From Deroplatys truncata (lineage: Eukaryota; Arthropoda; Insecta; Mantodea; Mantidae): a DNA stretch of 64,000 nucleotides. Each line of letters opens with the position of its first letter. Position 1 is the stretch's first letter. Below are positions 2,950 to 57,556 of this stretch, one piece after another. The position numbers were made by a program, and so were the translations under genes. The stretch spans positions 128,592,295 through 128,656,294 of the forward strand of contig CM060977.1 of assembly GCA_030765065.1 (NCBI GenBank). Reading direction: 5' to 3'. Below the pieces are notes generated by a model. It did no database searches. It was not told the origin of the DNA and saw only the letters and a program-made list of their open reading frames with translations.

Positions 2950-3110
2950 TTTATTCATTACATCATATATCACATTCTGGGGAGGATGGGGAATAATCTT
3001 GAAAGATAAATTCCCACCGCAGCCAGGAATCGAACTCCGGACCCATCGTACAGCAGGCTCTGACTGAGATACGAGGTCAGATACTGAAGCTTGTTTTTCC
3101 GTCGACTTCA
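2950..3110 (-). repeat. tRNA-derived SINE fragment
   Basis: On the minus strand an A-box-like TATCTCAGTCAGAG (near 3075) and a B-box-like GGAGTTCGATTCC (near 3030) have tRNA spacing. It lies inside B repeat copy 1 and probably accounts for the interruption there. No clear target duplication was found. Confidence 0.5.
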
Positions 3111-3713
3111 TTTAATCCACATAAACGTTTGCAGAAATAGTTGCAATACACATTTCATTATCACACAAAGAAAACGATAGCCAAATGTTTAAGAACTGGA
3201 CGCTATATGCTGGCCTTTAAATTCCATACTGTTTCCATGCAATCGTGAGAAACAACTGAATGTTGAAAGGACTTTAATGACCAAGTAAAGAACAGTATAA
3301 GAAGCATTAATGACATCCAGGAAATAGCTTGACGCCACAAAAAATTAAATGAAACAAATGTTTCAAGGAGATTCATATTTCTTGTGCAGTACGTTTTCGC
3401 CTATCTCGCTCACAGGTTGTATAGGATTATATAGAACTCCTTCCGAATAAAGAGGACTTCAAGGGCTATTCCAAGAAAATTCAAGTCAAACACTTTATTT
3501 GTTATGGGAATACTAGTAGATACTTATAATATATCGTATTTTATTCAAAATAGTTATCTTTTAGAAAATAAACAGTTTCGAAAAATTCTACACGTAGAGG
3601 GTAGTTTGGGATGCAGGATTTTCTTGAAACTCTTCGTGTTTCATCTTTGGAAAGTACTGAACCCAAATACCAAGCTTGGTATTTATCCGTCTTTTCGTTT
3701 GTGAGCGACAGTG

Positions 3714-3714
<1 letters not shown>

Positions 3715-3755
<41 letters not shown>
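3715..3755. repeat. (AC)n microsatellite in B repeat
   Basis: About 20 AC units sit just after the GTGTTCAC motif that precedes CA tracts in all A and B repeats. Confidence 0.95.
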
Positions 3756-3760
<5 letters not shown>

Positions 3761-3787
3761 ACAGACGGACGGGACTTTTTATAAAAA

Positions 3788-4502
3788 TGTGATGTGTTAC
3801 AACCCCATGACTTTCTCTACTCTTGTACAAAATATTTTTACAACGCTTACTCTACATATGCTTCATGTTAATCGAGATATGGAGATATTAATCTTATTGC
3901 TATTTTTCTTGTAGATACTAGGGGAATTGGTAGGCTTTAAGCGATAGTCAAATATTTTAAGAGCTGGTTGCTATGTGGAGCATTCCACTTTCTTTGCATT
4001 ACCAGGACACAAAAAATGAATAACGAATTCCCATTTCAGAAAAAGTATAAGTTTTGGAAAATTTAAGGGAATAACAAGCAATATCTCGAAAATGGTTCAT
4101 TCAACATTACAAATGTATATGACATAAATTGTGTATTTTAACGCGATCCACATTTTTTGTGCAGTGCAATTTTGTCTATCTCTTATGGTTTACCAGTTAT
4201 GCAAACGTCGTTCACAATGATGAACACTTTTGGAGACATTCCCAGAAAATTCAAGATATGCATTTTATTTGTCATGAAAATGTCTTAAACATATGATATT
4301 TTAATCAAAATCGTTAGCGCCGTTATTGAGAAAATTAACATTTTCGAAAAATGTTCCATGTAAAGGGTAATCTGGGGTGGGGGAATTTTCTTGAAAACCT
4401 TTGTGTCGCATCGCTGGAATATACTTAACCTAAATACCAAGTTTGGTGTTTATCCGACTGTTCGTTTCTGAGTTATGCTGTTTACAGACAGTCAGACATA
4501 CA

Positions 4503-4561
<59 letters not shown>

Positions 4562-4696
4562 ACGCACACACGGACATGTTTACAAAAACACATTTTTTGG
4601 ATTATGAGAGCCTCAAAACATGTATTTCAGGTGAATATCGGTTTCGAGTTTTTGGTGGAACGCAATACCTAGTATGTACTTGGTAGAAAAAGTAAC
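3788..4696 (+). repeat. A repeat, copy 1
   Basis: Full-length copy. It shows, in order, TGATGTGTTAC, ACTTTCTCTACTCTTGTAC, AGCGATAGTCAAATATTTTA, GAGCTGGTTGCTATGTGGAG, ATGACATAAATTGTGTATTT, CCAAGTTTGGTGTTTATCCG, TGAGTTATGCTGTTTACAGA, a long CA tract and GGTAGAAAAAGT at the end. The left flank TAAAAAT and right AACAAT are compatible with a degraded target duplication. Confidence 0.85.
4505..4558. repeat. (CA)n microsatellite in A repeat copy 1
   Basis: About 27 uninterrupted CA units at the fixed microsatellite position of the A repeat. Confidence 0.97.
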
Positions 4697-5000
4697 AATG
4701 AAATTAACAAACAGTGATAATAGAATTTTATAATAGTACCATGCTCATTCTGCAATGAGTATACATATATGATAATCTTTCCATATGTGTCAGAGTCCGA
4801 AGCTTGAGAAATGAGTTACAGTCCAAAATAAACTTCATCTCTACCAGGAACAATACAAGCTACCTAGTCCATGCATATCGTATTCAGTTTTATAAATTGT
4901 CTAATTTATTTTTCTTCAAAATCCTGTTTGTAAGGAAAGGATTTTATTTATTTATGAATTCAAATGTAAAATATTCCTTTAATCGAACCAGATGTATCAC
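4697..5000. other. Unassigned AT-rich DNA
   Basis: Only AT-rich sequence without recognisable coding or repeat structure. Confidence 0.4.
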
Positions 5001-9967: not shown

Positions 9968-11710
9968 AGTCTGATGTTATGAATTCGTATTAAATTCTGT
10001 ACATTCTATCGTTTATTTGTGGATATAAAATTATTTCTACTCTATTTACTACATTTTAATTCAAATAAACCTTTGCAGAAATAGCTGCATTACACATTAC
10101 GTTATAGATACAGACGGAACAGCGATAGTTAAATGTTTAAGAATTGGGCGCTATATGCTGGTCTTAAAATTCCATACTGTTTCCATACAATCGCGAGAAA
10201 CAACTGAAAGTTGACAGAACTTCAAGGACTAATGAACAGGGGATAACTGTTATCTCAGAAAGGGCTTATGTCACAGAAAACGTATTTTAAATAAACTCTA
10301 TGTTTTAAAGTGGTGTTTTTATGTATAGTGTGTTTCTGTCTATCGCTTAACGTTTACAACATTCCTTCCGCATGAAAAGGACTTGATAGGTTATTCCCAG
10401 AAAACTTAAGATATATATTTTATGTTCCATTTAAATATCTTACATAAGAGGTTTAAATGAATATCTTTAAGAGACATTTTTAGAAAATATAAATTTTCGA
10501 AAAACGTTCCATATATGGTTTAGGGTAGTTTTGGGTGAGGGGATTTTGTTAAAAGAATTTTAGTCGTGTACTTGGAGGATTGTGAACTTCAGTATCAAGT
10601 TTGGTATTTATATTCAACTTTTGGTTTTTGAGTTATGAAGACACCCACACGGACCTGCTTCTTGAAGTAGGTTGTTGCTTTACGTATTGAAAGCCAATTT
10701 GAAGTAGGAGTTGTATTGTATTTCAACTGTTGGGGAGCCGAACTTGAAGTAGTTGCAAACGCACGTATGGTAAAAAGTTTCCCGTAGCCTTCGCCCCAAA
10801 TGTTTAAAAAAATATTAACTTTGTAATTTGACCGTTTCTTTAAATATTATATATTTATATTTGCCTCGGCTGCGTCAGTATTATCGTTAGAGACATGGAT
10901 TTCTTTGCAAGGCGTGGTGCGGCTGAAGAATGTAGGCTTACACAGATTATAATTTTTTAATTCACTCTTTTCTATTAATTCTTGACACGATTTAAATAAC
11001 ACTTCACTGATATAGAAAGCTGTAAGATTCTTTTATTAAATACTTGCACTTTTTAAACACGTAAACTATTTTCGTCTCACACTGAATACGTATTACATTT
11101 CTCGAGGACGCATCTCGCGTCCGGTTAGGAACACTGTCTACAACCAACTGACTTCTCTATTTGTAAATCTTGCTATATTTTAGTTTCTGATTGGCTAATC
11201 CTAGTCCAATAGAATACCTTCATTTAACTAAAGCTTTTTCTGGTTGTTGATTGGGTTTTATTAAACTGGCTCAAAAATTATATTATTGTTGCTCCAAGAA
11301 TTACCAGTAATATTAAACTTTCAAGTTCATTATTGCCTCAAGCCTACCTCATTGTTAGCAACTTTTAACCTATTATTTTCACAGCACCTACATTATTAAA
11401 TTACGTAATAAATTCAGATAGCATTGTTATACATGTATACAATAATATAAACATATATAATGACTGCAATATACAGTTTTTATGTCTTGTTACATACACA
11501 TTGCTTTAAGGCGGACGGTTATATTTTTTATTATATAATTTGACTGAAATCTTTTAAGTGTTAAAAATACTGCTCATTCTAAAAGGCTTTTTATACAGGA
11601 GACCTCAAAACATGCATTTCCGGTGAAATCTCGACAATGAAATTTTTATTGGAATAAAGCACCTCCTCTTACCTACTATACATAGGTAGCAGAGAAAGCA
11701 AAAGTGAGTT
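9968..11710 (+). repeat. B repeat, copy 2, split by an LTR-like element
   Basis: The left part (9968-10662) shows AACCTTTGCAGAAATAGCTG, GAATTGGGCGCTATATGCTG and ends in CACCCACACGGACCTGCTTCT. The right part resumes at 11577 with TTCTAAAAGGCTTTTT and GACCTCAAAACATGCATTTC, and ends in GTAGCAGAGAAAGCAAAA. Joining the parts over the duplicated TTCT gives a normal B repeat of about 0.82 kb. Confidence 0.8.
10663..11576 (-). mobile_element. LTR-like element 1, copy 2, probable solo LTR
   Basis: Plus-strand termini are TGAAGTAGGTTGTTGC and AAAATACTGCTCA, so TG...CA with a short inverted repeat. TTCT occurs at 10659-10662 and 11577-11580, a 4-bp target duplication within the B repeat, whose consensus has a single TTCT there. 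Length is 914 bp. There is no internal coding region and no second LTR in the same orientation, so it fits a solo LTR. The 4-bp duplication suits a Ty3/gypsy-type integrase, but that is only an inference. Confidence 0.75.
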
Positions 11711-15242: not shown

Positions 15243-16031
15243 TTGTGGCGGTTCTCAGATGACTTGTTTTATCTTATTTTTTGGGCGCTTATTGTTTAAT
15301 TATTTTATTTAAATTGGGTTCTTTGTCCTCCGGCTAGCTATTATAACTCAGTCGAGCACGTGTGTCTAAACAGGGTGTGTAAACGGAAAGGAGTTGTTGC
15401 TAAAAGATAACACTGATAAAAAAAAATGTGAATCTAGATTTATTGCCGTCACGCTTAATTAATAATACACACATTTAATCTTTATACACGCCTAACTGAA
15501 ACTGTGATATTTCCGAATGTAACTACAGTCCTTTTAGTTGCCGCGCACCAACTACTTCGCGTACTTTACATTTTTGTAACTAACTCTGCGACGTGCACCT
15601 CGTGAGAGATTCTTCAGTACTGTGAGACACTCCCTTATGGCTCGAGAATATATACTCCTCCACCTCGAATTGCCTAAACATTATAATATAGTTGCTATTG
15701 GTTACCAAATTGCGCCAACTTTAGCGTCTGTTTTGATCAGCCAATCACTACTACTAACATGTATGCTCCAGGGAAGATATTCCCTCCATTTCCAAAATAG
15801 GCACGCTACCCTGACGTCAATTTCGGCTGTGTTTTCTTAGTGAACAACTTCTCACCCCCTCGGTTTATTGTTACCCACTTCTATTGGCAGTTTCAGTTAG
15901 ACCATGCAAACTTATTTCCTAACAATTCTTATGGCTAATAAATATCTAAAATCGTGTACATACAATAATATTAATTTACACTATAATCACTCTGGCATTC
16001 ATATCATGTTATGATATAAAATATTGCCTCA
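15243..16031. mobile_element. LTR-like element 2, copy 1
   Basis: A 789-bp unit with termini TGTGGCGGTTCTC and ATATTGCCTCA (TG...CA). It is homologous throughout to 24448-25337, sharing CCTCCGGCTAGCTATTAT, CACTGATAAAA, TTTATACACGCCT, AGGGAAGATATTCCCTCCAT and ACTCTGGCATTCA. A clean target duplication is not visible here. No coding capacity. A solo LTR is the best explanation; a non-autonomous DNA element is possible. Confidence 0.6.
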
Positions 16032-19282: not shown

Positions 19283-20524
19283 TACACCATGTCATCAAAA
19301 GTATCCGAACACCCCACAAACATACATTTTTCATCTAAGGTGCATTGTGCTACTACCTACTGCCTGGTACTCATTGTCCGCGACCTCAGAAGTCATTAGA
19401 TATCGTGAAACAGCAGAATGAGACGCTCCGTGAAACACACGAACTTCGAACGTGGTCAGGTGATTGGGTGTCACGTGTGTCAGAAGTCTGTAAGCGAGAT
19501 TTCCACACTCCTAAATATCCCTAGGTCCACTGTTTCTGATGTGATAGTGAAGTGGAAACGTGAAGGGACATGTACAGAACAAAAGCGTACAGGCCGACCT
19601 CGTCTGTTGACTGACAGAGACCGCCGATATTTGAAGAGGGTCGTAAAGAGTAATAGGCAGAAATCTATCCAGACCATCACACAGGAATTTCAAACTGCAT
19701 CAGGATCCACTCCAAGTACTATGACAGACATGAGGTAAGAAACCTTCGATTCCATGGTCGAGCGGCTGCTCATAAGCCACACATCACGCAGGAAAATACC
19801 AAACGACGCCTCTTTTGGTGTAAGGAGCGTCAACATTACACGATTGAACAGTGGCAATACGTTGTGTGGAGTGACAAATCACGGTACACAATGTGGCGAT
19901 CCCATGGCAGGGTGTGGGTATGGCGTATGCCCTGTGAACGTCATCTGCCACTGTGTGTGGTGCCAACAGTGAAATTCGGAGGTGATGTTATGGTGTGGTC
20001 GTATTTTTCCTGGAAGGAGCTTGCACCCATTATTGGTTTGCGAGGCATGACCACAGCACAGACCTATATTGATATTTTAAGCTCCTTCTTGCTTCCCACT
20101 GTTGAAGAGCAATTCGGGGATGGCGATTGCATCTTTCAACACGATCGAGCACCTGTTCATACTGCACGGGCTGTGGCTGAGTGATTACACGACAATAACA
20201 TTCCTGTAATGGATTGACCTGCACTGAGTTTTGACTTAAATAATATAGAACACCTTTGGGATGTTTTGGAACGCCGACTTCGTGCCAGGCCTCACCGACC
20301 TACATCGATACCTCTCCTCAGTTCCGCACTCCGTGAAGAATGGGCTGCCATTCCCCAAGAAACCTTCCAGCACCTGATTGAAAGTGTGCGTGCGAGAGTG
20401 AACGCTGTCATCATGGCTAAGGGTGAGCCAACACCATATTGACTTCTAGCATTACCAATGGAGCGCCACGAACTTGTACGTCATTTTCAGCCAGGTGTCC
20501 GGATACTTTTGATTATGTAGTGTA
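19283..20524 (+). mobile_element. Tc1-like DNA transposon, copy 2
   Basis: Terminal repeats ACACCATGTCATCAAAAGTA and its complement GATTATGTAGTGTA enclose 1242 bp. The same family as copies 1 and 3. Confidence 0.92.
19418..20442 (+). pseudogene. Tc1-like transposase, near-complete but broken
   Basis: Starts MRRSVKHTNFERGQVIG with the helix-turn-helix SVSEISTLLNIPRSTVSDVI. The first 106 codons are open. A frame change follows near 19735, after which one frame runs through HYTIEQWQYVVWSDKSRYT, the core VWVWRMPCERHLP, FQHDRAPVHTARAVAE and a stop at about 20182. A second in-frame stop lies near 20215, then NNIEHLWDVLERRLRARPHR leads to the end. The first catalytic Asp is kept (WSDKSR, where the Glu of SDESR became Lys), the second is in QHDRAPVH, and the final Glu is in NIEHLWD. 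The length without breaks is about 341 codons, normal for Tc1. Confidence 0.92.
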
Positions 20525-20945: not shown

Positions 20946-22136
20946 AGCGGAATATAGAATGGGGCGCTAAGAACCACAACAATTAAAGAGCGTCCGTAAA
21001 TAGAATTCAGTTTGCTCCTTTGCGAAGCTTTCTAGTGGCATGAAAAAGGAACTAAATTGTTTAAGTTGAACTCTCAGAAAAATTAGGAGAGAGGAGAGAG
21101 GAAGACTGTTTTGTGGGGGGATGCGCCATAAACTTCTAGGAGGATGAGCACCCCTAGTTTGTAATGTATAATTTTTTATAGTTCGCAGTAACTAAATAAT
21201 ATCTAGGACTAATACTATCACTAAAACATGTGAACATTAATTGTTCAAAAGCTAATGAATTGATATGATATCAGGGGAGGTACAGAAAAAGATGTGCTAT
21301 AATTTGACAGCATCTGTAACTGAACATTTAAAAGCAAGAATGTAGCAAAGAACGTGATTTTGCACGCCCCTTGGTTACTAGTAAATCCACATGCTAAAAC
21401 CATTATTATAACAATGTGGTCCGATGTCGAAATGCCGCTTCAAAACCAATAAATCAGTCCCAAAAATACAAAGCCCAGGAAACATGCAAAGAACAATATT
21501 TTTGGAGCATTGTGGGAAAACAACACATGTTTAGCAGTTCTTGTTTACCGACTGAAGGCTGTTGTTAATTTGTTGGTAATCTAAAGCTTTGGATTCTTTT
21601 AATTCAGAAATCTAACAGCTATATTTTTCTAAATCTTATTATTCTAATATGAAATAGTTTACATAGTTTCCGTACCCAGTGATTAGCTCATTTATGTATA
21701 TTTTTTGTGATCAATGCGATATTAGGGCACATAGTTATAATTATGGCTCTTAGGTATCCAATGAATATACCTACAACTGGATTTGCAGCTAAGAGTATAA
21801 ATTCATGAAGTAGAAGAATTTAAAATAATTCTAATATGCGTATAATGTAAACAACTTTGCGCGTATATTTTAATTGAGCCTAAGATAGCCTTTGTAGTGT
21901 TCGTAAAGTACACTCCAGCTTCTGCGAAGTTGTGTTGCCTAACTAGCCCGTTGTTGGGGGCATAGTCGCTAGAGTGTTTAGCTTTGATCTCCATTGCGTG
22001 GAGGATCGCGGGTCCAACGGATTAGGCAATGAGTGTTTTTGTGCGTGTAAATTTGTGCGTGTGCGTGTGCGTGTGCGTGTGTTTGTGCGTGTAAAATTAA
22101 AAACAGACAAAGCAGGAAAAGCAGAGGCAAACAAAA
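20946..22136. other. Unassigned AT-rich DNA with a GT-rich minisatellite
   Basis: No gene or dispersed repeat is recognised. At 22042-22092 there is a run of GTGCGT hexamers. A B-box-like GGATCGCGGGTCCAACG near 22002 hints at a SINE head but is too weak to call. Confidence 0.4.
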
Positions 22137-22137
22137 G

Positions 22138-22202
22138 ATCCGATGTGTTGCACTCACATGACTTTCTCTATTCTTGTACAAACTATTTTTACAAACCCCA
22201 AA
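22138..22202 (+). repeat. A repeat 5' fragment
   Basis: CCGATGTGTTGCACTCACAT, ACTTTCTCTATTCTTGTAC and AACTATTTTTACAAAC match the first 65 bp of the A repeat, then switch into the D unit. Confidence 0.75.
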
Positions 22203-22462
22203 AATGAATGTAATTTTCATACAGCATTGCAAGGAACATAATATAATGTAATAAATACGTTAACGTGGTTACTTGTAATAAGTTTTAACCAAAAAAATTG
22301 AATTCTCATGTATAACATTTAGTTTCTCCCAAACTAGTAGGATAATTAAAAATTCATCTTTGGAATTTATTAATATACAAAGAAGAAATTTAAATAAAAT
22401 ATTAAGTTTTCCAGAAAACAATTGCATCATGTGGAGTAATCTTTTAAAGTAGCAAAACACTA
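22203..22462 (+). repeat. D unit
   Basis: Homologous to the reverse complement of 17606-17885. It lies between an A-repeat 5' fragment and a longer A-repeat piece, like a spacer in a head-to-tail arrangement. Confidence 0.7.
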
Positions 22463-22870
22463 ATAAAAAATCTGATATATTGTACTCACATTTATTTCTC
22501 TGCTCTTGTACAAACTATTTTTACAAACGCTTATTTTTATCTGTTTCATGCTAATCGAGATAAAAATTTTCAGAAATTCTCTTATTGCTAATTTTCTTGT
22601 AGATGCAAGGGGAATTGGTGGGCTTTAAGCGAAGGTCAAATGTTTTAAGAGCTGGTTGCTATGTGGAGTACTCCATTCTCTTTGCATGTCCCGGATATAA
22701 AAAAACGAATAACGAATTACTATTTGAGAAAAGTATAAGTATTCGAAAATTTAAACAAATAACAAGCAATATCTCGGAAATGGTTCACTACAAAATAATA
22801 TATATGACATAAATTGTGTGTTTTAGCGAGATCCACATGTTTGTGTAGTAAACTTTTGTCTATGCCTTAC
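22463..22870 (+). repeat. A repeat, copy 4, 3'-truncated
   Basis: Shows CTGATATATTGTACTCAC, TCTCTGCTCTTGTACAAAC, GAGCTGGTTGCTATGTGGAG and ends after TAGTAAACTTTTGTCTATGC. The 3' half is absent. Confidence 0.8.
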
Positions 22871-23451
22871 CTTCCACACAAACAGATATAAAATTGTTTA
22901 AACGTTGACACATTTAATCTTATGTAAGCTAATTTATACTTTCTCTACTGCGTAAAATAAGTAGGGGAAGTATTGTATTCCACCCAAAAATTCGATACCG
23001 AGATTTCACCGGAAATACATGTTTTGAGGTGCTGAATCCAAATAAAAAAATTTTAAAAACAAGTACGCATGTCTGAATGTGTCTACAGCATAACTCAAAA
23101 ATGAAAAGTCGGATAAATACCAAACTGGGTATTTGAGTTTAGTATCTTCCAGGTATGCGACACGAAAATTTTCAAGAAAATACCCCTACCCCAGACTACC
23201 CTTTACATGGTATATTTTTCGATTTTTTTTCTCAAAAATGGCGGTAACGGTTTTAATTAAAATGTCATACGTTTAAGAAACTTATATGTCAAATAAAATG
23301 TACATCTTGAATTTTCTGGAAATGTTCCCAAAATTCCTTTTCATTCTGGATGACTTTTGCATAGCTGGTAAACCTTTTTGCAAAGCTAGACAAAGACAAC
23401 ATTTTACTACATCAAAATGTATATCTCGTTAAAACAAACAATTTATGTCAT

Positions 23452-23731
23452 ATGGAATTAATTGACCTAATAGTGGTTGCAACTATAAAGCCCGGGACTT
23501 AAAGTACTTACAATGAATGTAAGTCGCCATTGGGGTATGACATCTCAATACAATTTGAGATCACCTTGTGGTTTCCCGGGAAAAATGCAAATCAGCTGGA
23601 GAATTTAATGTCGCGTCGGCATGTTGCCATGGTAGTTCAGTGGTTAGAGTAACCGGACGGAGACCGGGAGATCCGTGGTTCAAATCCCGTCTATTGCATT
23701 GACTTTTTCAGTCATCTGATTCTACCTTTCC
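23452..23731 (+). repeat. SINE composite with 12-bp target duplication
   Basis: A 280-bp unit flanked by perfect AATTTATGTCAT repeats (23440-23451 and 23732-23743). The tRNA-like part is in its second half: A box TGGTAGTTCAGTGG at 23630 and B box GTGGTTCAAATCCC at 23675, followed by CAGTCATCTGATTCTACC. The first half has AAGTACTTACAATG, TAAGTCGCCATTGGGG and AATTTGAGATCACC. The same composite is found at about 51285-51575. Confidence 0.85.
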
Positions 23732-23998
23732 AATTTATGTCATCCTTTTTTTTTTGCCGAGGGAACCACTTTCGAGATGTTCGTGGTTATTTGTTTGAAT
23801 TTTCCAATAATTATACTTTTTCTCAAATAGGCATTCGTTCTTATGTTTTTTTTACTTTCTCTACTACGAATAGTAAGTAGGGAAAGTATTGCATTCCACC
23901 CAAAAATTCGATACTGAGATTTCACCGGAAATACATGTTTTGAGGCCTCCTGAATCCAAAAAAAGTATTTTTGGAAACATGTCCGTGTGTATGTCGGT

Positions 23999-24003
<5 letters not shown>

Positions 24004-24042
<39 letters not shown>
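24004..24042. repeat. (GT)n microsatellite in A repeat copy 6
   Basis: About 19 GT units between GTCGGTGTGTCT and TCTGTCTGTCTGTGAACAG, at the fixed microsatellite position of the A repeat (minus orientation). Confidence 0.95.
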
Positions 24043-24043
<1 letters not shown>

Positions 24044-24447
24044 TGTCTGTCTGTGAACAGCATAACTCAGAAACGTACAGTCGGATAAATACCAAACTTG
24101 GTATTTAGGCTCAGTATCTTCCAGAGATGCGACATAAAGGTTTTCAAGAAGATCCCCCATCCCCCAGAGTACCCTCTACATGGAACATTTTTCGAAAATT
24201 TTAATTTTCTCAAAAGTTGCTCTACCGAGCTTGACTAAAATATAATATATTTAAGATACTTCCATGACAAATAAAATGTATATCTTGAATTTTCTCGGTA
24301 TGTCTCCAAAAGTGTTCTTCATTGTGAACGTCGTTTGCATAACCGGTAAACCATAAGAGATAGACAAAATTTTCCTGCACACAAAATGTAGATCGCATTA
24401 AAATACACAATTTATGTCATATACATTTCTTTTGTTGAGTAAACCAT

Positions 24448-25337
24448 TTTCGAGGTTGTCGCAGTAATCTGTTCGTGTTATCATTTTTACTTGGCGCCTG
24501 TTATTGTTTTACTGTTTTGAATTTTGGATTCTTTATCCTCCGGCTAGCTATTATTACTCAGTCGAGCAAATATCTCTGAGCAGGGCGTGTAAACGGAAAG
24601 AGCTGTTAATAAAAGATAACACTGATAAAATAATTTGTTTTCACACTTTTATTACCGTCACATTTACTTAATAGTTCACATCTGTAATCTTTATACACGC
24701 CTGTCTGAAACTGTTATATTTCCGAATGGAATTACTGCCGTAATAGTTGTCGCGTACTTCACATTTTGTAACTAACTTTACGACGCGAGAGATTCTGTAA
24801 AACTGCGTAATGTGTACCTCGCGAGAGATTGCTGAGAACTGCGTGATGTGTACCTCTTGAATGATTCTGTAGAACTGCGTAATGTGTACCTCGCGAAAGA
24901 TTGCTGAGAACTACGCGATGTGTACCTCGTGAATGATTCTGTAGAACTGCGCGATACTTGCTTTTGGCTCAAGAATTTATACTCCCTCACCCCGATATGC
25001 CTAAAAATTATAATAGAGCTACTATTGGTTACTAAATCGCGCCAACATTAGCGCCAATCATAATTGCTAATACATATGCTCTAGGGAAGATATTCCCTCC
25101 ATTTCTAAAGAAAGACACGCTACCCTGACGTCATTTGTTTGTCTCTTCTAAGTGATAAACAACTCATCCCATCGCTTCATTGTTACCCACTTCTATTGTC
25201 AGTTTCAGTGAGGACGTGTGAACTTATTTCCTAACAATGCTTATAGCTAACAAACATCTAAAATCATTGTCATACAATAATGTTAATTTACACTACAATC
25301 ACTCTGGCATTCACAGTGTTGTGATATAAAATAATTC
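24448..25337. mobile_element. LTR-like element 2, copy 2, with expanded minisatellite
   Basis: Homologous to 15243-16031 and inserted in A repeat copy 6. The target shows CGAG before and CTAG after, a possible 4-bp duplication with one change. It is about 100 bp longer than copy 1 because of a tandem array at 24803-24946. No protein-coding capacity; the 70-codon serine/arginine-rich frame across the array follows from its 36-bp period. Confidence 0.7.
24803..24946. repeat. 36-bp tandem array, four units
   Basis: Units start at 24803, 24839, 24875 and 24911. Odd units contain GATTGCTGAGAA and even units GATTCTGTAGAA, so the higher-order period is 72 bp. All carry ATGTGTACCTC. Copy 1 of the element has only a single related unit at about 15590-15640. 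Confidence 0.9.
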
Positions 25338-25959
25338 CTCTAGATATTGCTTGTTATTCCCTTAAATTTTCCAATAGTTGTACTTTTTCCCAAATTGGAA
25401 TTCGTTATTCATTTTTTTTTTGTCCTGGAAATTCAAAACGAACGCAATACTCCACATAGCAACCAGCTCTTAGAATATTTGACTATCAGCTAAAGACTAC
25501 AATTCCCCTTTTATCTACAAGAAAATTAGCAATAAGATTAAGATCTTGATATATCGTATAACATGAAGCATATGGAGAATAAGCGTTTGTAACAACAGTT
25601 TGTACAAGAGTAGAGAAAGTCATGTGAGTGTATCACATTAGATTTTTTTATGTCCTGTACATGCAAAGAGAATGAAATTCTCCACATAGCAACCAGCTGT
25701 TAAAATATTTGACTATCGCTTATAGCCTACCATATTCCCCCGTGCATCTGTAAGAAATTAGTCATAAGATAGTTTCTGTAAATTTTTATCTTATTAACAT
25801 GAAGCAGATAGAGAATAAGTGTTTGCACAAATAGTTTGTAGAAGAGTAGAGAAAGTAATGTGAGCGCAACACATCTTATTTTTAAAATAACAAGTGGGTG
25901 ACTCACTCACGGTGAGTCACTTTATTGATAAATTCATTTTTTAAATGCAATTTTCTGAA

Positions 25960-32589: not shown

Positions 32590-33590
32590 CAAAGACTGCA
32601 GTGAAACGTGTACATTTTATTTCATGCAACCAACACAACCAACTGATAGTACATATACAATAGGTTCTTTTCAACACAGATCCCATTTCGGTTTAGGCAC
32701 TTGTCTCTTCGTGGGATGAGTTTCAACATTCCCTCCTGTTCTTGCGCGTTCAGCCACGCTGTCGCGAAGTGTTTCACCTCCCCATTTGAAGCAAATCGTT
32801 GGCCTTCTAGATGCTCCTGTGATCCTTCAAGTGACGAAAACGGAGAAAGTCGCTAGGAGTGAGGTCCGGGCTATAGAGAGGGTGGGCTGTATGAGATCAC
32901 GCGTTGTCGTGAAGGCAGATGACGCCCTCGGTAAGACGTTCTGGCCGTGTCCTCCTGATTGTTTCGCAAAATTGTGTCAATGTCTCGCAGCGTCGGTCAG
33001 CGGTCACCGTGTGCCTTTTTTCCAAACGTTCCACGAGTATGACACGCGCGTTGTCCCAAAACACTGTGGCCATCACCTTCCCGAAAGGTGGCGTGACCTT
33101 AAACTTCTTTGTCCACTCCATTAACGACCGCTTGTTGCTGGGGCTGTAGCAGAAGATCCATGTTTCGTCATGAGTTACATTATGGTGAAGAAAACTGTTC
33201 CCTTCCATGGAGAACGGTTGCAAAATTTGCAGACTTTTCCCCATGCCCTTCTCGTGTTGGTTGAACATATTTTGTGGAACCCATCGGACACAACTTTCCG
33301 AATATCGTGAACAAAATGACGGGCGCTTCGGAACGACATTCCCAATTCTACCGTAACGTGATTCTCTTGCTGTCCTTAATCAGTCCCTCCACACGAGCTG
33401 CGTTCAGATCTGTTGCTGCCGTGCTGTGTCGGCCTCTGCAATCCTCGACGGTTACGTTTTCTCTACCGGTCTCAAACTTTTGACACCACTCTGCGATATG
33501 CTGACGAGACATTGCGGTCTCTCGGAACCTCTACCAGCTGCCGCTGAATTTCAGCCGCAGTTACATGTTTCGCGCTAAGAAATCAAATAA
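32590..33590 (-). pseudogene. Mariner-family transposase relic
   Basis: On the minus strand SRQHIAEWCQKFETGRENVT (about 33500) is the N-terminal helix-turn-helix part. An open stretch of 123 codons (33268-32897) carries HDETWIFCYSPSNKRSLMEW (first catalytic Asp), KVMATVFWDNARVILVE and VICLHDNA (second Asp). After a stop, LYSPDLTPSDFLRF gives the third Asp, and RRDKCLNRNGICVEK marks the C terminus near 32665. All three catalytic Asp residues remain, but stops and frameshifts in the N-terminal third and after the second Asp make it non-functional. Terminal repeats were not found. Confidence 0.85.
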
Positions 33591-36425: not shown

Positions 36426-36449
36426 CAGGTAGTGGGTCAAAATATTTTA

Positions 36450-37330
36450 TGAACATTCACATGACATTCTCTACCCGCTATAATTTATTTGTGTGTATAT
36501 AAACTATTTTACAAAAGCTTGTTTTGCCATCTACTACATTTTAATCCAAATAAATCTTTGCAGAAATAGCTACATTACACATTTCGTTATAGTTTCAAAC
36601 AGAAATGCGACAGTCAAATATTTAAGAACTGGACGCTATATACTGGTCTTAAAATTCCATACTGTTCCCATGCAATAGCGAGAAACAATTGAATGTTGAT
36701 AGAACTTTAAGAGTGATCAAGAAATGAACAATTCGAACCTTTAATAACGTATACCTCGGTAATGGAATACGCCACAAAAAATTATTTGAAGTGAATTGTG
36801 TGTTTTAAAGAGATCTACATTTTTTGTGTAGTACGTTTTCGTCTTTCGCTTAACGTTTAGCAGCTGTACAGCATTATACAAAATTTCTTCGAGTTCAAGT
36901 GGACTTAACAGGTTATTCCCCAAAAAATTCAAGTTATACATTTTATTTATCGCGTAAATATCTAATCTACGGTATTCTAAACAAAATCATTATAGCCATT
37001 TTTTAGAAAATAAAAAATTTCAAAAAAAATTCCATGTAATGCGTAGTTTGTGGTGGGGAGACGATCTTAAAAATCTTCTGTAGCATCTCTTGGAAGAGAG
37101 TAAACCTAAATACCAGGTTTGGTATTCATCTGAAGTTTCGTTTTTGAGTAATGGTGTTCACAGACGGACACATAGACAGACAGACAGACACACACACACA
37201 CATACACACACAGAGGCGGAACCTTTTCTAAAATGTTTATTTTGTATTCAGGGTGCCTCAAAACATGTATTTACGGTAAAATCTCAGAATAGAATTCTTT
37301 GATGGAATACAATACTTCCCTTACCTACTT
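36450..37330 (+). repeat. B repeat, copy 4
   Basis: Contains ACATTCACATGACATTCTCT, AAATCTTTGCAGAAATAGCT, AACTGGACGCTATATACTGG and AATACCAGGTTTGGTATTCA, then a modest CA/GACA tract at 37170-37212 and GTGCCTCAAAACATGTATTT. Confidence 0.85.
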
Positions 37331-37486
37331 CCCAAGCGTAAGTACATTTGGAAGCTCCAAATACACTTTGTACGCAAAGTATTATACAGTAAACAATAAC
37401 AAGCTATGAACATTTTCGAAACGGTTTTCGAATAAAGAAATACGCATATAAAAATAACCGATATAAAATAATACCTGCCAATACTT

Positions 37487-38335
37487 TTTATCTTCTCTAC
37501 TACATATAGTGAGTAGGGGAATTGTTGGATTCCACAAAAAAATTATATACCGAGATTTGAAGGAAATACATGTTTTGAGGTGCCCTGAATCCAAATAAAG
37601 CATTTTAGAAACATGTACGTGTGTCCATCTTTCTATCTATGTGTCTGTCTATGAACAGCATAACTCAAAAACGAAAAGTCGGATAAACACCAAACTTGAT
37701 ATTAAGTCTAGATCCTCTAAGGATACGACAGAAGATTTTCAAGAAAATCCCCCCCTCCAAACTTTCCTTTATGTGGAACATTTTTAAAAAGGTTTTGATT
37801 TTCTTAAAAATGGATCTAACGATTTTGATTAAAATATAACATGTTTAAGATACTTTTATGGCAAATGAAATATATGTCTTGAATTTTCTGGGAATGTCCC
37901 CAAAAGTGTTCTTTATTCTGAATGACTTTCACATAATTGATAAACCGACAAAAGTTTACTACACAAAGAAGTACATCTCGTTAAAACTCACAATTTATTA
38001 AATACACATTTTGTTTGTGGAGTGAACCATTTCCGAGATATTCCTTGTGTGTTTGAATTTTCCAATATTTATACTTTTTTTCTAGCGGGAATTCACTATT
38101 CGTTTGTTTATGTCCTGGACATGCAAAGAGAATGGAATGCTCCACATAGGAACAGGTCTTAAAACATTTGACTATCACGTAAACCGTAACATAAGCCCTT
38201 TGCACCTACAGGAAAATTAGCACTAAGACAGTTTCTGAAGTGTCTATCTCGATTAACATGAAGTAGATGGAGAATAAGCGTTTGTAAAAATAGTTTGTAC
38301 CAGAATAGAGAAATCCATGTGAGTGGAACACTTCA
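37487..38335 (-). repeat. A repeat, copy 8
   Basis: Full-length minus copy: CTTCTCTACTACATATAGTG, CATGTTTTGAGGTGCCCTGA, TAACTCAAAAACGAAAAGTC, GGACATGCAAAGAGAATGGA, GTTTGTACCAGAATAGAGAA. The CA position is reduced to short GTGTGTCC and TATGTGTCTGTC remnants. Confidence 0.85.
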
Positions 38336-39734
38336 GATGTTTTCCATAACGGCTAATCCCAACGTTATTTCACCACGAAACCTCTTGTAAAAGAAAAGGG
38401 GGAAAAACTAGAATAAAGAATGCTCACTTTGGTGAGAGTGCAGCAACGCAGGAAACGTTGCAGTAAAGGTTGCGCCGTAGAGTAAAACACTAACAGCGTT
38501 ACCCGTCCAATAACAATACCCGAGCATGAAAGCCTTGCATTGTTTGAAACAATCCTTTTAGCAGATAAAAGCAGACACTTAGAAAGCAGGTAGGTGGAGA
38601 GAGGCAGTGTGGCTGCGACTTCCTCTAGGATAAAATAATCGCAGTTGACACTATGCTAGGACCTTCGCATCTTTTACCTTTGCCTATGATGCAACACATC
38701 ATTTATGCTCTAAAATAAATGTAACACTGTAAAATACTCCAAATAACATTTAATTACTACTTAGTAATGTAATAACCGTTGATGTAACTAAAAGATTTGG
38801 TTCACTATGATTTATTCATCTCAACGACATTTAATATTTGTATCTTATGACAATGCCGGTTGGAGTGTAGAGGAAAAATCCCTATATTGAACCACTTAAG
38901 CCTAAATAGTAAATAATAATTGTAATTTCAAATCAAAATTTTCAGAAACACAAGCGTTAAAGTGACAACTCCTTGCGCTATAAACATCCTCAACACAATT
39001 TAAAATTAATACAATTATGTATTAAACAACATTCAAAAAGTGAGATGGTGTAAAACGGTTCAAATTAGGAACGTGGTCCTTAAATTGAACCACACGTGTC
39101 TTAAAATGAACCACATACGTTTAAGTTTACAAGTATTTTTATTAATACAAAATACACATTTTTATTGTACGTTCAAAACAAATATGCTATCAACAAGAAA
39201 ACTAGTGTCCAAAATTGTGATAATTTCCTTGAAGATTTTGAATTTTTATATAATGACAATCACTTGGTTTTTGGAATAGGTATTATTTGCAAATATAGAG
39301 TTTTTACTAATTTTACTCTCATGCAAAAGAGTCCAATTATACACAGTGTTCACATTAAAACACATTATCCTTGGCACTAATTTTTGCACACTTTTGGTGA
39401 AGCCATATCCTACAACTCATACACTGGATCATGTCCACATTTTTAGACAACTCACAATTCACATATTCATGTCATCTACTGTTTTAACATGATTTTTTTT
39501 TAACTTAGCATATTATGTGGATATTTATTTACACGTTATACTATTCGCAGTTGAGCAATCCTAGAACTTCAATAGGTTTCCTAAATTGGACCAGTTCCAT
39601 ATAGGGTTCAAACAGTGCTTCAATTTACGAGCCACGCCATTTTGGAAGCTTTAGCCTCTATGTGACAAGGAGAGAGTTGCTTGAAAAAACGTATGCATGA
39701 ATATTGTTGCTAAATAAACACTTCATAACATGTA
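38336..39734. other. Unassigned AT-rich DNA with a hairpin
   Basis: No family recognised. A notable inverted repeat at 39057-39091 pairs GGTTCAAATTAGGA with TCCTTAAATTGAACC around a short loop. Related words (TTGAACCAC, AATTGGACC) recur at 38890, 39105, 39590 and 40010. Confidence 0.4.
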
Positions 39735-41532: not shown

Positions 41533-42185
41533 CAGCAGAACAGCCGCACTTTTGGTAATTTCCCCTCTATAATAGAATGTTCCGCTGTTTTGTTTTACTC
41601 ATACTTGGAATTTGTTTCAGTGATAATAGTGTTTTGTCTTCTTGTGCTATTCTTGTTTTTATATAATAATTGCGTAAAAGTATTAAGCTTTGTGTGTTTG
41701 GCAGCCCCTAGTTTTGGGAAAGCGAAAGTTTCCTTTATGAATAAAATTAACTTCAACCTTAATATTGATACACGGTAGCTGTAGTTCTCAGTTCAGATAA
41801 GTTTTATTAATGAATAAAAGAATCCTTTTTTTAACTACCACATTAAAGTGCTTTCCATTTAGAGTAATACGTTTATGGAGCGTTTAACTTTCCCCATAAC
41901 GAATGTGACTGCTGATACGGCAGCATTTTCATCCTGAATTCTTTTCTTTTATTTTCCATAACATGTAAACCTATGAAAATTAAGCTTCAGATATGTCTAC
42001 ACACAAGAAAATATATCTGTGAAGTTGTTTTAAAATGTTTATTACACTCATAAATTTTACTTTCATGTTACACAATTGATACTTTTAATACTGGAAATTG
42101 CAAAATGCTCCTTGGACAACAGTTTATAACTTATTAGCTTGAAATGTACAGCAGAGCTTCAGGAATTACAGATTTAAAAATTTAA
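41533..42185. other. Possible 3' untranslated end of the R2-like element, then AT-rich DNA
   Basis: No coding sequence. The element end could not be fixed because there is no obvious tail or duplicated target. Confidence 0.35.
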
Positions 42186-42189
42186 AGTG

Positions 42190-43735
42190 GTACATTCACA
42201 TGACTTTCTCTACCCCTATGTTTATTAGTGAGTATACAAACTATTCATACTAAAGCTTATTTTTCTGTCTACTACATTTTAATCCACTTTCCACAGTATC
42301 TAACATCCATGAAACGCCAACCACTATAATGGATAATTAACAGCTATAAAAGCAGCGTAACAGATCATTTTATATAGACCATACATAAAACAAAAAACAA
42401 TCATCTTACCAGACTCAAAATGAGCCATAGATGGAATAGTAAATTACAATAATAAAACATCAAGAAATATTAAAGATACAAAAAGACTAATTAAAGCAGA
42501 TGAAACTAGAAAGCATGTCAGTCTACAATGGATCCCAGCCCATGTCGGACTTTTGGGCAATGAATATGGGCTCAATTAGCAAAGAAAGGTGCAATACAAC
42601 AAAACCTGTAGGACAAATATAAATAAAAAAACAAATAATTAAATAACATAAAACAACATTTCAAAAGACAGCAGAGACTTGACGGAGAAGATAAATTAAA
42701 AGATAGAGATTATAAGATTATTAAAAATAGAGTTTATATACAAAAAACGCCAAAGAAAACTGCAGTGGCCTTATTTAGGATGGCATCTGGTCACGATTAC
42801 CTCGCAGAACACCTCTACAAGATACGATGCGTCCCTACACCCAAAGTGAAGAAGATATCATCCTGAACAAACAGCATCTTGCCAAATTCAAAGGCCTTAA
42901 AAGTTACTTTATATTGGAAAACCAGAGGGAAAACGATACAGATCAATTAAACCCCATTGCCTTTGGTGAACAACATTTTGATCCAAATGAACATTTTCAA
43001 AAGTAGCTCATTACACATTTCGTTATAGATACAATGAGAATAGCGGCACTCAAACTGTTTAAAAACTGGACGCTATATGCTGGCCTTAGAATTCCATACT
43101 GTTTCCAAGCAATAGTGAGAATAAACTGAAAATCTACAAGACTAAAAGAGTAAATATTAACAATTCGAAACTTTAATAACAAGTATCTCAAAAACGACAA
43201 ATGCCACTGAAAAACTCATTTTACGTAACTTGTGTTTTAAAGAGATCTGCATTTTTGTATGGTACCTTTTCGTCTATCGTTGACGTTTGCCAATTACACA
43301 AAATTATTCAAAATTACTTCCAAATAAAGGGGACTTTATGGGCTATACCCTGAAAGTTCAAAATGCAAATTTTATTTATTATGTAAATATCTTTAATATA
43401 CGATATTTTAATCAAAACCGTTGGAGCCATTTTCAAAAAATGTTCCACGTGAAGGATAGTTGGGGGTGCGCGATTTTCTTGGAAATCCTCCTTGGAAGGT
43501 ATTGAACCTAAATACCAAGTATGGCGTTTATCCAAATTTTAATTTTTGAGTTATGTTGTTCACAGACAACACACACAGACACGCGCACGCATCTTTTTCT
43601 AAAAATGCTTTTGTTTGGATTCATGGGGTCTTAAAACATGTATTCCCAGCAAAATATCGATGTCGAATTTTTGGGTCGGAATGCAATGCCTTCTCTGCCC
43701 ACTATATACATGGCAAAGGAAGTAAAAACCGTTAT
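42190..43735 (+). repeat. B repeat, copy 5, split by a LINE
   Basis: Left part 42190-42286 (TACATTCACATGACTTTCTC up to ACATTTTAATCCA) and right part 42986-43735 (TAGCTCATTACACATTTCGT, AACTGGACGCTATATGCTGG, CTAAATACCAAGTATGGCGT, AAAGGAAGTAAAAA) add up to about 0.85 kb. Confidence 0.85.
42287..42972 (+). pseudogene. LINE fragment with RNase H-like C-terminal region
   Basis: Readable in broken frames: KDTKRLIKADETRKHVSLQW and IPAHVGLLGNEYG (42520), the His-containing motif near the end of retroelement RNase H domains (QWIPAHVGI.GNE). Then come KTAVALFRMASGHDYLAEHL and YKIRCVPTPK (42755-42845), as in LINE proteins with RNase H followed by a cysteine/histidine tail. It is bounded by ACATTTTAATCCA (42274-42286) and ACATTTTGATCCA (42973-42985), a 13-bp target duplication with one mismatch. 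The copy is 5'-truncated and inactive. Confidence 0.8.
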
Positions 43736-44752: not shown

Positions 44753-46003
44753 TACACTACGTGATCAAAAGTAATTCGGACACCTGGTTGAAAATGACGT
44801 ACAAGTTTGTGGCGCCCTCCATCGGTAATCTGGAAGTCAATATGGTTTTGGCCAACCCTTAGCTTTGATGACAACGTTCACTCTCGCAGGCACACTTTCA
44901 ATCAGCTAATGGAAGGTTTCTTGTGGAATGGCAGCCCATTCTTCACAGAGTGCGGAAATGAGGAGAGGTATCGATATAGTTCGGTGAGACCTGGCACGAA
45001 GTCGGTGTTCCAAAATATCCCAAAGGTGTTCTATAGGATTCTAGTCAGGACTCTGTGCAGGCCAGTCCATTACAGGGATGTTATTGTCGTGTAACCACTC
45101 CGCCACAGCCCGTGCAGTATGAACAGGTGCTCGATCGTGTTGAAAGATGCAATCACCATCCCCGAATTACTCTTCAATAGTTGGAAGCAAGAAGGTGCTT
45201 AAAATATCAATATAGGTCTGCGCTGTGATTGTGCTACGCAAAACAACAAGGGGTGCAAGACCCTCCAGGAAAAGCACGACCACATCATGACACCACCACC
45301 TCCGAATTTCACTTTTGGCTCTACATACGCTGGCAGATGACGTTCACCGGGCATTCGCCATACTCACACCCTGCCATCAGATTGCCACATTGTGTAACGT
45401 GATTCATCACTCCACACAACGTTTTGCCACTGTTCAATCGTGTAATGTTGACTATCCTTACACGAAGCGAGGCGTAGTTTGGCATTTTCCTGCGCGATGT
45501 GTGGCTTATGAGCAGCCGCTCGACCATGGAATTCAAGGTTTCTCACCTCATGCCTAACTGTCATAGTACTTGGAGCAGATCCTGATGCATTTTGAAATTC
45601 CTGTGTGATGGTCTGGATAGATGTCTGCGTATTACTCTTTACCACCCTCTTCAAACTTAGGCGGTCTCTGTCAGTCAAGAGAGGAGGTTGGCCTGTACGT
45701 TGTTGTACTGTACATGTCCCTTCACGTTTCCACTTCACTATCACATCAGAAACAGTGGGCCTAGGGATGTTTAGGAGTGTGGAAATCTCGCGTACGGACT
45801 TCTGACACAAGTGACACCCAATCACTTGACCACGTTCGAAGTCCATGAGTTCCACTGAGCGTCCCATTCTGCTGTTTCGTGACGTCTAATGACTACTGAG
45901 GTTGCGGACAGTGAGTACCAGACAGTAGGTGGCAGCACAAAGCACTTAAGATGAAAAACGTATGTTTGTTGTGTGTCCGGATACTTTTGATCACATAGTG
46001 TAT
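44753..46003 (-). mobile_element. Tc1-like DNA transposon, copy 3
   Basis: Terminal repeats TACACTACGTGATCAAAAGT at the left and the complement ATCACATAGTGTA at the right enclose 1251 bp. Closest in sequence to copy 1 and in the same orientation. Confidence 0.93.
44837..45867 (-). pseudogene. Tc1-like transposase, N-terminal half open
   Basis: From MGRSVELMDFERGQVIG the first 167 codons are uninterrupted. They include the helix-turn-helix SVREISTLLNIPRPTVSDVI, a linker with the GRP-like sequence RTGQPPLLTDRDR, and WSDESRYTMWQSDGR with the first catalytic Asp. Frame changes follow near 45360. Later pieces carry the second Asp (after FQHD, near 45130) and the Glu region before YLWD, then EEWAAIPQETFH-like residues. 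This is the best preserved N terminus of the three copies. The expected full length is about 342 codons. Confidence 0.9.
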
Positions 46004-51075: not shown

Positions 51076-51104
51076 TTCTTCCACTTTAAATACTCAATTG
51101 GATA

Positions 51105-51280
51105 GGTAGAATCAGACGATTGAAAAATCCAATGCCATCGCACTGATCTCCCAGCTTCCGTCCGGTTACTCTAACCCCTGCACCACCATGGCAACCATCC
51201 TGGGGATGGCATTGAATTCTTCAGTCGTCTGATTCTACCTTTCCAATCTTGCCCAACAGCACGGCTTGTGTGGAAGAGCA
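51105..51280. repeat. SINE fragments in inverted orientation
   Basis: A minus-strand SINE piece (GGTAGAATCAGACGATTG to CATGGCAACC in plus orientation, with the A/B-box part between) meets a plus-strand tail (CAGTCGTCTGATTCTACC) of the same SINE. The ends can pair over about 40 bp. Confidence 0.7.
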
Positions 51281-51575
51281 ATTAATTCCATTAACTGACT
51301 TAATAGTTGTCGAAACTATGAAGTAAAAGTACTTACAACATTGTAAGTCGCCATTGGGATATGTCATCTCAGTACAATTTGAGATCACTATGTGGTATAT
51401 CGGGAAACATGCGAATCAGTTGGGGAATTTAATGTCCTACTGGCATGTTGCCATGGTAGCTCAGTGGTTAGAGTAACCGACGGAAACCGGGAGATCCGTG
51501 GTTCAAATCCCGGCATGGTTCTGAATTTTTCAGTCGCCTGATTCTACATTTCCAACCTTGTCCAACACACGTGGA
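51281..51575 (+). repeat. SINE composite, second full copy
   Basis: Homologous to 23452-23731: AAGTACTTAC, TAAGTCGCCATTGGGATATG, AATTTGAGATCAC, then A box TGGTAGCTCAGTGG (51454) and B box GTGGTTCAAATCCC (51496), and CAGTCGCCTGATTCTACA. No clear target duplication. Confidence 0.8.
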
Positions 51576-53250
51576 AGAACAATTAATTACAGCACGTCTT
51601 ATTTATTTTCGCTGCCAAAGAGATGACTTTGAATTAATAAAATTATACAGCAGCAGAGTTTAACATGAATATGCGCACACACTTACACAACAAATTTGGT
51701 CAATATTTGAAAACAAAATGTTTTATTCAAATCAATTTGTCTACCTTATTCTCAACATAGCTATATATTTTACAACTTTATCTTAAGGGACTGATACTTA
51801 GGTCCTTAAAAGCCTTATCCCGCCATTATTGAACTTCCTAAATTCATGAACTTTTATATCATAAAATACTTTAGTTATCAAATATAGATGCACGCCTTCT
51901 TAGTTCACTGATCTACGTCCATACAATGATTTCATTTATTAAAGAAGATAGGGTGTTTCTTATTTGTACAACGTTTATTAAAATTCATCATTTATTTATT
52001 TTTTTAAATAATAAACAATCATATTTACACTATACTACATCCACAAGAGTATTGAGGCATTGTTTTATCATCCTAAAATTAAATTCAGTTATCTTCATTA
52101 GTTTCTCACTCTGGCGATTTATATAAGAAAAGGTCATTTACAGAAACATAGTGTGGCGCGTATGTATATGTATTGTCACGCCAGACACATTATTGCTTTG
52201 TTAGCGACAGTATTGTTGGTGTAATTCTTTAGGTTTGGGTTTTGAATTTCGTCAGGCGTGGCGAGGGTAGAGTAGGGGAAGTAAGCGTTACATGTTTTTG
52301 TTGTGGTGTTCTGTGGAGAGCGTCATCACTTCAAGTCGTGTGTCTGACATGGAAGGATGTGTGTGAATCGTGTGAATGTGACCTCGTGTGTGTAACATCT
52401 CCCTCCAATTTCTTTATCTTTTCTTTTGTGCATGATGTAGGCACACCGTGTTATATTCAATAAAGCACAGGTAATGTGTATTTTGTTATAACTATCCCAC
52501 GCCTGCTCTGGAATGTGTTTTTGAGATTCTGGTCCTCTCGCTACCTTTGATGTTATGCCTCCCAATGTATATGCCGGGGTAACTAAAATTGAATATGTTT
52601 TGGCCTCACCCCCGTATATAACAATAGTTCAAAGCAAATGTAAAGCAAACTACATACATACATACATACATACATACATACATACATACATACATACCGG
52701 GTGAGGTTTCTCAGCCTGCGGATTGAGAAGTTATGCAGTCCCGGAGTTGTATAGGCTATGCCGTACATACTGTCTACTACATCGCTCGTATCAATTTCAG
52801 CCCCGAAATGACTGCTTTGCACCGCGCAACATTGTGCACGTTGGCCTGCAGTTTAAATACGGCCACTTGAAGGTACTTTTTGTGTTTAGTAAATTTATCG
52901 ACACTTGATAGTTTGGCATGGAAGTGCCGTTACACTTAATTAGTTTAATTATGTGAACTTCATTAAAACACAAATTGTTACTTGTTAGAATTTGGTTTAA
53001 TGAACATCATAAATAAATGCATATAGCATTGTAATTATAATTTACACATATAGGCATCATTAAATGTTTTACTATTTAAAGCTATTCTTTCATACAAAAG
53101 AAAGCCAATAAATTTTCTGAGGGTTTACAAAATGCAATACGTACATACAAACTAGATAACGTTTGCAAGCCTATATTATGATCGTTATGAACCTCCCTAG
53201 TTTTCAAAGTAGTGCTCTTAATAGTAACTATGACATCATGCCGGACCATC
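51576..53250. other. Unassigned DNA with a (CATA)n tract
   Basis: No recognised coding region. The tract TGTGGCGCGTATG...TCACGCCAGACA at 52150-52190 is a weak dyad and AATAAAGCACA lies at 52460, which could suggest an LTR or a transcript end, but nothing else supports this. Confidence 0.4.
52651..52697. repeat. (TACA)n microsatellite
   Basis: About 11 tetranucleotide units ending in TACCGGG. Confidence 0.95.
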
Positions 53251-54305: not shown

Positions 54306-54634
54306 GTTTCACAGTGAGCATGAACGGCAGGAACTTGGTATTTATAGGCAAATACACTTTGTAGTGCATTCAGAAAGAAATCATGATTTGTTAGAACGTT
54401 CTCGAAACATGAACAGAAATGAATAAAAAACTCATTTATACGCATGCGTGATTTGAACTTCCGACCTTCACCATAACTTTCAAGCATTTTAAGCATTTCA
54501 CTACCGGAGTACCACCGTAGCCCTAATCAACGGGGTGGTGAAAGCACCTGCATTTTGCATCGTCTGTAAAATGCTGGGTTGCCTAGTTTCCAATCCGCAG
54601 GATAAAAAGACTCAGCGGTATATATACATACATA
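54306..54634. other. Flank of the DUF4817 element
   Basis: No independent feature seen. The open frame running upstream of the transposase start has no known similarity. Confidence 0.35.
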
Positions 54635-57265: not shown

Positions 57266-57339
57266 GTATTATATTCTAATGTAAGATAGAAATATCTTAA
57301 ATTGTAGTAAGAATATTTTTATAAAAGTAATAAGTAACG
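57266..57339. other. Unassigned spacer
   Basis: Short AT-rich spacer. Confidence 0.4.

Positions 57340-57475: not shown

Positions 57476-57556
<81 letters not shown>

Follow-up and report, generated by a model that had tools for sequence, protein, structure and literature searches.

The segment 22936-25885 of the window (the whole stretch of 64,000 nucleotides of Deroplatys truncata DNA that was analysed) contains four elements, and these are nested. Two copies of a repeat, which we call A, lie on the plus strand in the same orientation. Each copy comprises approximately 0.85-0.9 kb, and the inner copy lies within the outer copy. Both copies hold additional inserts: a SINE-like element in the outer A and an LTR-like element in the inner A. 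The initial annotation had described a four-element nest at this place. This description was borne out, and its boundaries, which were redrawn here (Table 1), were off by only 0-9 bp. The outer A had been placed at 22936-25885; the element is present and its limits are now 22938 and approximately 25878, with Ts continuing to 25883. The inner A as given earlier (23857-25634) lacked 3 bp on the left and 8 bp on the right. The SINE-like insert together with one copy of its 12-bp duplication occupies 23452-23743, exactly as claimed. The presence of the LTR-like insert, earlier given as 24448-25337, was confirmed, and its best placement is 24457-25340. No stop-to-stop open reading frame of at least 120 amino acids overlaps 22936-25885. 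Matches to the A repeat cover 12,432 bp (19.4%) of the window.

Table 1 Elements, boundaries and terminal motifs of the nest (positions in the window)
Feature	Positions	Strand	Remarks
Outer A (HINE-like)	22938-25878	+	Interrupted twice; subTIR start at 22938, then T-run to 25883
Outer A, own sequence	22938-23451, 23744-23853, 25650-25878	+	Basis: profile pieces in order
Outer 5′ subTIR, ACTTTCTCTACT	22938-22949	+	12/12 versus family word
Outer inverted repeat, AGTAGGGGAAGT, near-complementary	22960-22971	+	11/12 versus family word
Left target duplication of SINE-like element, AATTTATGTCAT	23440-23451	+	
SINE-like element	23452-23731	+	Second copy in window; tRNA match inside
tRNA-related stretch	23626-23698	+	RF00005, 33.2 bits (gathering score 29); 3′ half of SINE-like element
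Right target duplication of SINE-like element, AATTTATGTCAT	23732-23743	+	
T8 tract, 5′ boundary of inner A	23846-23853	+	Target T-run of outer A and/or terminal Ts of inner A
Inner A (HINE-like)	23854-25642	+	Interrupted once; Ts flank both ends
Inner 5′ subTIR	23854-23865	+	12/12
Inner inverted repeat	23876-23887	+	12/12 versus AGTAGGGAAAGT
GT-rich microsatellite (GT and GTCT units), inner A	23985-24055	+	Tandem Repeats Finder, period 4, 17.8 copies
Possible left duplication of LTR-like element, GAGGT	24452-24456	+	A family sequence there is GAGAT
LTR-like element	24457-25340	− (tentative)	884 bp; within inner A
36-bp minisatellite	24784-24955		Within LTR-like element; differs between the two copies
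Possible right duplication of LTR-like element, TAGAT	25341-25345	+	3/5 bases agree with GAGGT
Inner 3′ subTIR	25609-25620	+	12/12
Inner palindrome	25622-25638	+	
T7 tract, 3′ boundary of inner A	25643-25649	+	
Outer 3′ subTIR, AGTAGAGAAAGT	25845-25856	+	12/12
Outer palindrome, ATGTGAGCGCAACACAT	25858-25874	+	15/17

We inspected 12 5′ ends and 11 3′ ends of A copies in the window. Ten copies were aligned, and later 15, and the terminal motifs were scored in these 15 copies. The 15-copy alignment and the tree built from it leave out the profile fragments 2727-2816, 11577-11701, 22133-22198, 42176-42285 and 57288-57648. At the 5′ end of A, a T-run is followed by the 5′ subTIR (ACTTTCTCTACT), the inverted repeat (AGTAGGGAAAGT as family word) and a GT-rich microsatellite. 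The family word of the inverted repeat pairs with the 5′ subTIR and is its exact complement except for one mismatch. The 3′ end consists of the 3′ subTIR (AGTAGAGAAAGT), the palindrome ATGTGAGTGTAACACAT, AGA and a T-run. Of the two nest copies, the inner one has a long microsatellite, and that of the outer one is eroded. A match of at least 10/12 to the 5′ subTIR is present in 7 of the 15 copies and to the 3′ subTIR in 10 of the 15, with some of these copies truncated. In a control that covered the 5′ word alone, a score of 10 was reached by 69 of 5000 stretches taken at random from the window, A copies included. The inverted repeat reaches at least 10/12 in just five of the 15 copies, and 11 copies match the palindrome consensus at 12/17 or better. 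When the ends were folded as single-stranded DNA, the 5′ hairpins gave z = -3.94 (outer) and z = -2.09 (inner, without the first three bases). For the 3′ hairpins, z was -2.66 in the inner copy and -1.23 in the outer copy; the latter value is weak and not notable alone. These hallmarks fade with age: in the five oldest A copies, several of which are truncated there, the match to the 5′ subTIR is 8/12 or less.

Ts accompany both ends of A. Counted by eye, six of the 12 inspected 5′ ends have at least four Ts immediately before the subTIR, and seven of the 11 inspected 3′ ends carry at least five Ts. The inner copy extends from ACTTTCTCTACT at 23854 through TCACATTAGA, which ends at 25642, and it is inserted in an internal T-run of the outer copy, with T8 on the left and T7 on the right. 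Nine other copies possess 6-10 Ts at the same T-run, interrupted in three of the nine (by eye). The insertion site of the inner copy, the T-run of the outer copy, is seen here in a sequence that is known without the interruption. At this junction, terminal Ts and duplicated Ts are indistinguishable.

The continuity of the A copies was examined with a profile HMM built from eight A copies elsewhere in the window, one of which is partial; both copies of the nest were left out. The outer A matches the profile in three pieces, 4-537 at 22937-23456, 520-632 at 23731-23843 and 634-870 at 25643-25883. These pieces are consecutive and abut in order. The overlap at the first junction holds the duplicated target of the SINE-like element, and the second junction lacks no more than one profile position (632 to 634). 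The inner A, likewise not a member of the HMM set, matches in three pieces (2-168, 132-584 and 528-871). In the last two pieces, profile positions 528-584 are covered twice, by the left arm reaching 24473 and by the right arm reaching back to 25306. We judged this overlap to be a chance extension. In our judgement by eye, the match beyond TTTTCGAG is approximately that expected of AT-rich sequence when compared with the younger copies and somewhat better when compared with the outer copy.

The initial annotation had proposed that the insertions be spliced out computationally and that the spliced copies be checked for end-to-end alignment. We ran this check, and the outer copy was restored end to end once its inserts were removed: spliced with the earlier coordinates, it comprises 880 bp and gives a single match to positions 4-870 of the 873 in the profile. 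The inner copy spliced in the same manner (888 bp) was restored in two matches, 8-169 and 132-855, which overlap at the expanded microsatellite. At the refined coordinates, the outer splice scored 687 bits in one match (profile 6-862). With the SINE-like element alone removed, the best match was 485 bits (five matches), and with the inner A alone removed, it was 406 bits (two matches). The refined inner splice scored 695.5 bits over 131-865 and gave a second match, which is presumably the 5′ part, split off by the long microsatellite. As a control, stretches of 292 and 1796 bp were removed from the nest at random places 200 times. The mean best score of these random splices was 351 bits; 13 of the 200 reached at least 600 bits and five reached at least 650 bits. 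None of them beat the real outer splice, the top random score being 682.2 bits, and the five with at least 650 bits have breakpoints within approximately 35 bp of the real ones.

The target duplication of the SINE-like insert is identical in 12 of 12 bases, and it comprises 13 bp if the preceding C is counted. A second copy at 51290-51555 is 82.7% identical over 277 columns and is flanked by an 18-bp repeat of its own, GTGGAAGARCAATTAATT (17/18). ARAGORN reported no tRNA in the window, despite the Rfam tRNA match, and in Rfam no other RNA family matched the SINE-like element up to E = 5. A tRNA stretch, a target duplication and a dispersed copy are all present, and the insert is probably a tRNA-related retroposon. 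The tRNA stretch lies in the 3′ half, and an internal Pol III promoter at this place would not on its own account for transcription of the approximately 170 bp upstream; the SINE-like element may therefore be composite. Upstream of the second copy, in the region 51096-51590, lie fragments of its tRNA-like 3′ half, in inverted and in direct orientation.

Two separate copies of the LTR-like element were found in the window at E ≤ 1e-4, and they are 76-79% identical in two aligned pieces. The second copy (15244-16030) lies outside any A match; the conserved core of the copy in the nest is 24475-25333. In their best placement, both copies begin with TG and end with CTC, and thus differ from the TG...CA form. 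ATTAT stands on either side of the copy at 15244-16030 (5/5). On the minus strand of both copies, a TATA word lies 47 bp downstream of CCAAT, and AATAAA follows further on (the second copy was scanned at 15248-16012). We tentatively assigned the minus strand because of this order; the promoter-like words are short and more of them occur on both strands, so they lend the assignment little support. The designation LTR-like in the initial annotation is partly borne out: the second copy has a perfect flanking repeat, the ends are not those of the TG...CA form, and in the nest three of five flanking bases agree. The element may be a solo LTR, to which we give an even chance.

The ages of the A copies were compared in a tree of 15 copies (833 columns, microsatellite masked). 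The inner copy and the copies c4668m, c31578p and c40964m form a younger clade with support 100/100, and their distances to their own leave-one-out consensus are 0.065-0.097. The outer copy belongs with five others to an older set, whose distances to its own consensus are 0.113-0.158; this set is star-like and weakly resolved and does not form a clade. The two A copies of the nest fall into two age classes. The sets had been picked by eye from the 10-copy alignment before the tree was made, and the tree then recovered the younger set. The terminal branch of the outer copy is 0.112 and that of the inner copy is 0.077. Against leave-one-out consensus sequences of their own sets, made from five copies (outer) and three copies (inner), the outer copy has 109 mismatches in 816 positions and the inner copy 75 in 829 (Fisher p = 0.006). 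Because the outer copy has the longer terminal branch and more consensus mismatches, it is the older of the two. This age order had been predicted in the initial annotation, and it holds for branches, consensus mismatches and clade membership. A third group of five copies (support 100/100) differs by 30-40% among its members and by 38-59% (K2P) from copies of the other two sets. This third stratum is older still than the set of the outer copy. The long interval of A activity that had been proposed is supported by the three divergence strata, which point to at least three phases of activity. For a DINE-1-like family, the locus offers a well-resolved relative chronology at a single place, where a member of an older, star-like set is interrupted by a member of a derived subfamily with better support.

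We compared the anatomy of A with published non-autonomous Helentrons. According to the descriptions in PMC4067079, mite HINEs possess 12-15 bp subTIRs and a 3′ palindrome. For DINE-1, the same source gives subTIRs of 13 bp, with an inverted repeat close to that at the 5′ end, together with a microsatellite and a stem loop at the 3′ end. Mite HINEs and DINE-1 use T-rich or TT targets, and the number of terminal Ts is variable in Helentrons (PMC4067079). A resembles these HINE/DINE-1 (INE-1) elements in that it is non-coding, has subTIRs in the range of approximately 12-15 bp and a 3′ palindrome, is inserted in T-rich sequence and varies in its end Ts; the inverted repeat by the 5′ subTIR and the microsatellite are shared with DINE-1 as described there. 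In contrast to the roughly 38-60 bp described for mite HINEs in PMC4067079, the 3′ subTIR of A is separated from 25642 by 22 bp, or by 29 bp if the Ts are counted, and unlike the HINE/DINE-1 elements of that account, A shows no central repeats. Cg_HINE of the Pacific oyster is described as having a subTIR, an inverted repeat, a microsatellite, a 3′ subTIR and a palindrome (PMC7492417). Like A, it has a 5′ subTIR of 11-12 bp, a complementary inverted repeat 1-12 bp away, a microsatellite (with GTCY-type units in several elements) and a 3′ subTIR followed by the palindrome; in the same description, however, Cg_HINEs have satellite-like central repeats, and none were seen in A (PMC7492417). Because its subTIRs, inverted repeat and palindrome match the HINE/DINE-1 anatomy published in PMC4067079 and PMC7492417, as far as it is described there, we filed A as HINE-like and assigned it, by structure, as a putative HINE/DINE-1-type non-autonomous Helentron. 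In this analysis, A was not matched to any named family, and no autonomous Helentron was seen. A literature search with the letters of the A subTIRs found no relevant paper in the collection searched, the matches being unrelated by title and abstract. Exact scans gave no match to a 43-base 5′ pattern of A in viral contigs and none to a 37-base 3′ pattern in the genome and viral contig collections.

The 12-bp inverted repeats near both ends of A would also suit a MITE of a cut-and-paste DNA transposon whose termini are inverted repeats and whose target duplication is poly-T, and the T8 and T7 flanks of the inner copy are readable as such a duplication. However, the repeats are asymmetric: one is at the 5′ terminus and the other is 22 bp inside the 3′ end, ahead of a separate palindrome. 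Moreover, the second inverted repeat and the GT-rich microsatellite that follow the 5′ one are HINE/DINE-1 features, and PMC4067079 reports that some DINE-1-like elements were formerly misannotated as MITEs. We consider it quite unlikely that A is a MITE. That A copies were exchanged unequally or duplicated in tandem, and not inserted, could be suspected from the shared orientation of the two copies and from a tandem array (230 bp, 1.9 copies) at 25413-25864. This array is, however, the 3′ part of the inner copy followed by the 3′ part of the outer copy, as insertion predicts. The inner copy has its full extent, 5′ subTIR and 3′ palindrome included, has the T-run at its start and stop, belongs to another subfamily, and can be removed at the cost of at most the one profile position mentioned above; such an exchange is highly improbable.

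A different question is whether the inserts arrived at this locus one by one. The inner A, the SINE-like or the LTR-like element might already have been inside a carrier copy when the carrier transposed. A rolling-circle element may carry inserts along, and a single locus leaves room for this. In Fusarium oxysporum, self-insertion of Helitron2-type elements is described as giving nested, composite or chimeric Helitrons (PMC5148889). These resemble the A copies in that one family member is inserted in another, whereas the preferred site given for FoHeli1 and FoHeli2 is TNAT and that of A is a T-run, and the host in the nested example is a putative autonomous element, unlike the non-coding A (PMC5148889). 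Against a composite move, none of the other A copies in the window contains a SINE-like or LTR-like match (E ≤ 1e-4), and the set of the outer copy is older than that of the inner copy, which fits stepwise insertion. We therefore regard transposition of a ready-made composite as unlikely.

The arrangement is a stack in which transposable elements of known kinds are nested, and the HINE-like A family is its main player. That A is a HINE/DINE-1-like non-autonomous Helentron and that the inserts came stepwise into this stack is, in our estimation, very probable. We infer that A would be copied by the rolling-circle enzyme of a putative autonomous partner, which would recognise the subTIRs and the 3′ palindrome and would insert into TT in T-runs. 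An A copy of the older set would have landed first. Later, a tRNA-related retroposon would have entered this outer A with a 12-bp duplication, and an A copy of the younger subfamily would have entered its internal T-run in the same orientation. The LTR-like element lies inside the younger copy. The order of events in the initial annotation stands in so far as the LTR-like element is within the inner A and the SINE-like element and the inner A are within the outer A; the successive arrivals at this locus are deduced from that nesting, which leaves the SINE-like element and the inner A unordered. The locus is thus a record of several rounds of transposition, clear but ordinary. It is a tentative idea, and a rather doubtful one, that a high-copy HINE-like family lands in T-runs of its own older copies in successive bursts. 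If it is true, the insertions of a Helentron lineage in this genome could be put in chronological order from nests of dated subfamilies. The general interest is small, as PMC5148889 already describes both nesting and self-insertion for elements of the Helitron type.

Several other features were observed in the window. At 3081-4697, a minus-strand A copy of the younger clade (3′ end at 3782), ending with CACATTTTT, abuts an older, 5′-truncated A copy at T5, which makes a further T-run junction of two A copies. We considered a second nest there, but it could not be demonstrated, as approximately 300 bp upstream of the younger copy contain no A match; a mere truncation of the older copy may explain the arrangement. 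A 5′-truncated A copy on the minus strand (22462-22872) lies approximately 66 bp from the outer A, head-to-head. Head-to-head A copies are also present at 36437-38345, where those at 37346 (minus) and 37486 (plus) are approximately 140 bp apart. When 10 of the 21 open reading frames were scanned, domain matches were obtained in pieces at 32897-33379 (minus), 45364-45885 (minus), 19657-20184 (plus) and 54098-54526 (minus). The domains were Transposase_1 (mariner type), HTH_Tnp_Tc3_2 (in two reading frames, one below the curated cut-off) and DUF4817. The Tc1/mariner-type pieces and the DUF4817 match hint at an arthropod host. At 60119-60207, there is an AGT trinucleotide array of 30 copies with 97% matches.
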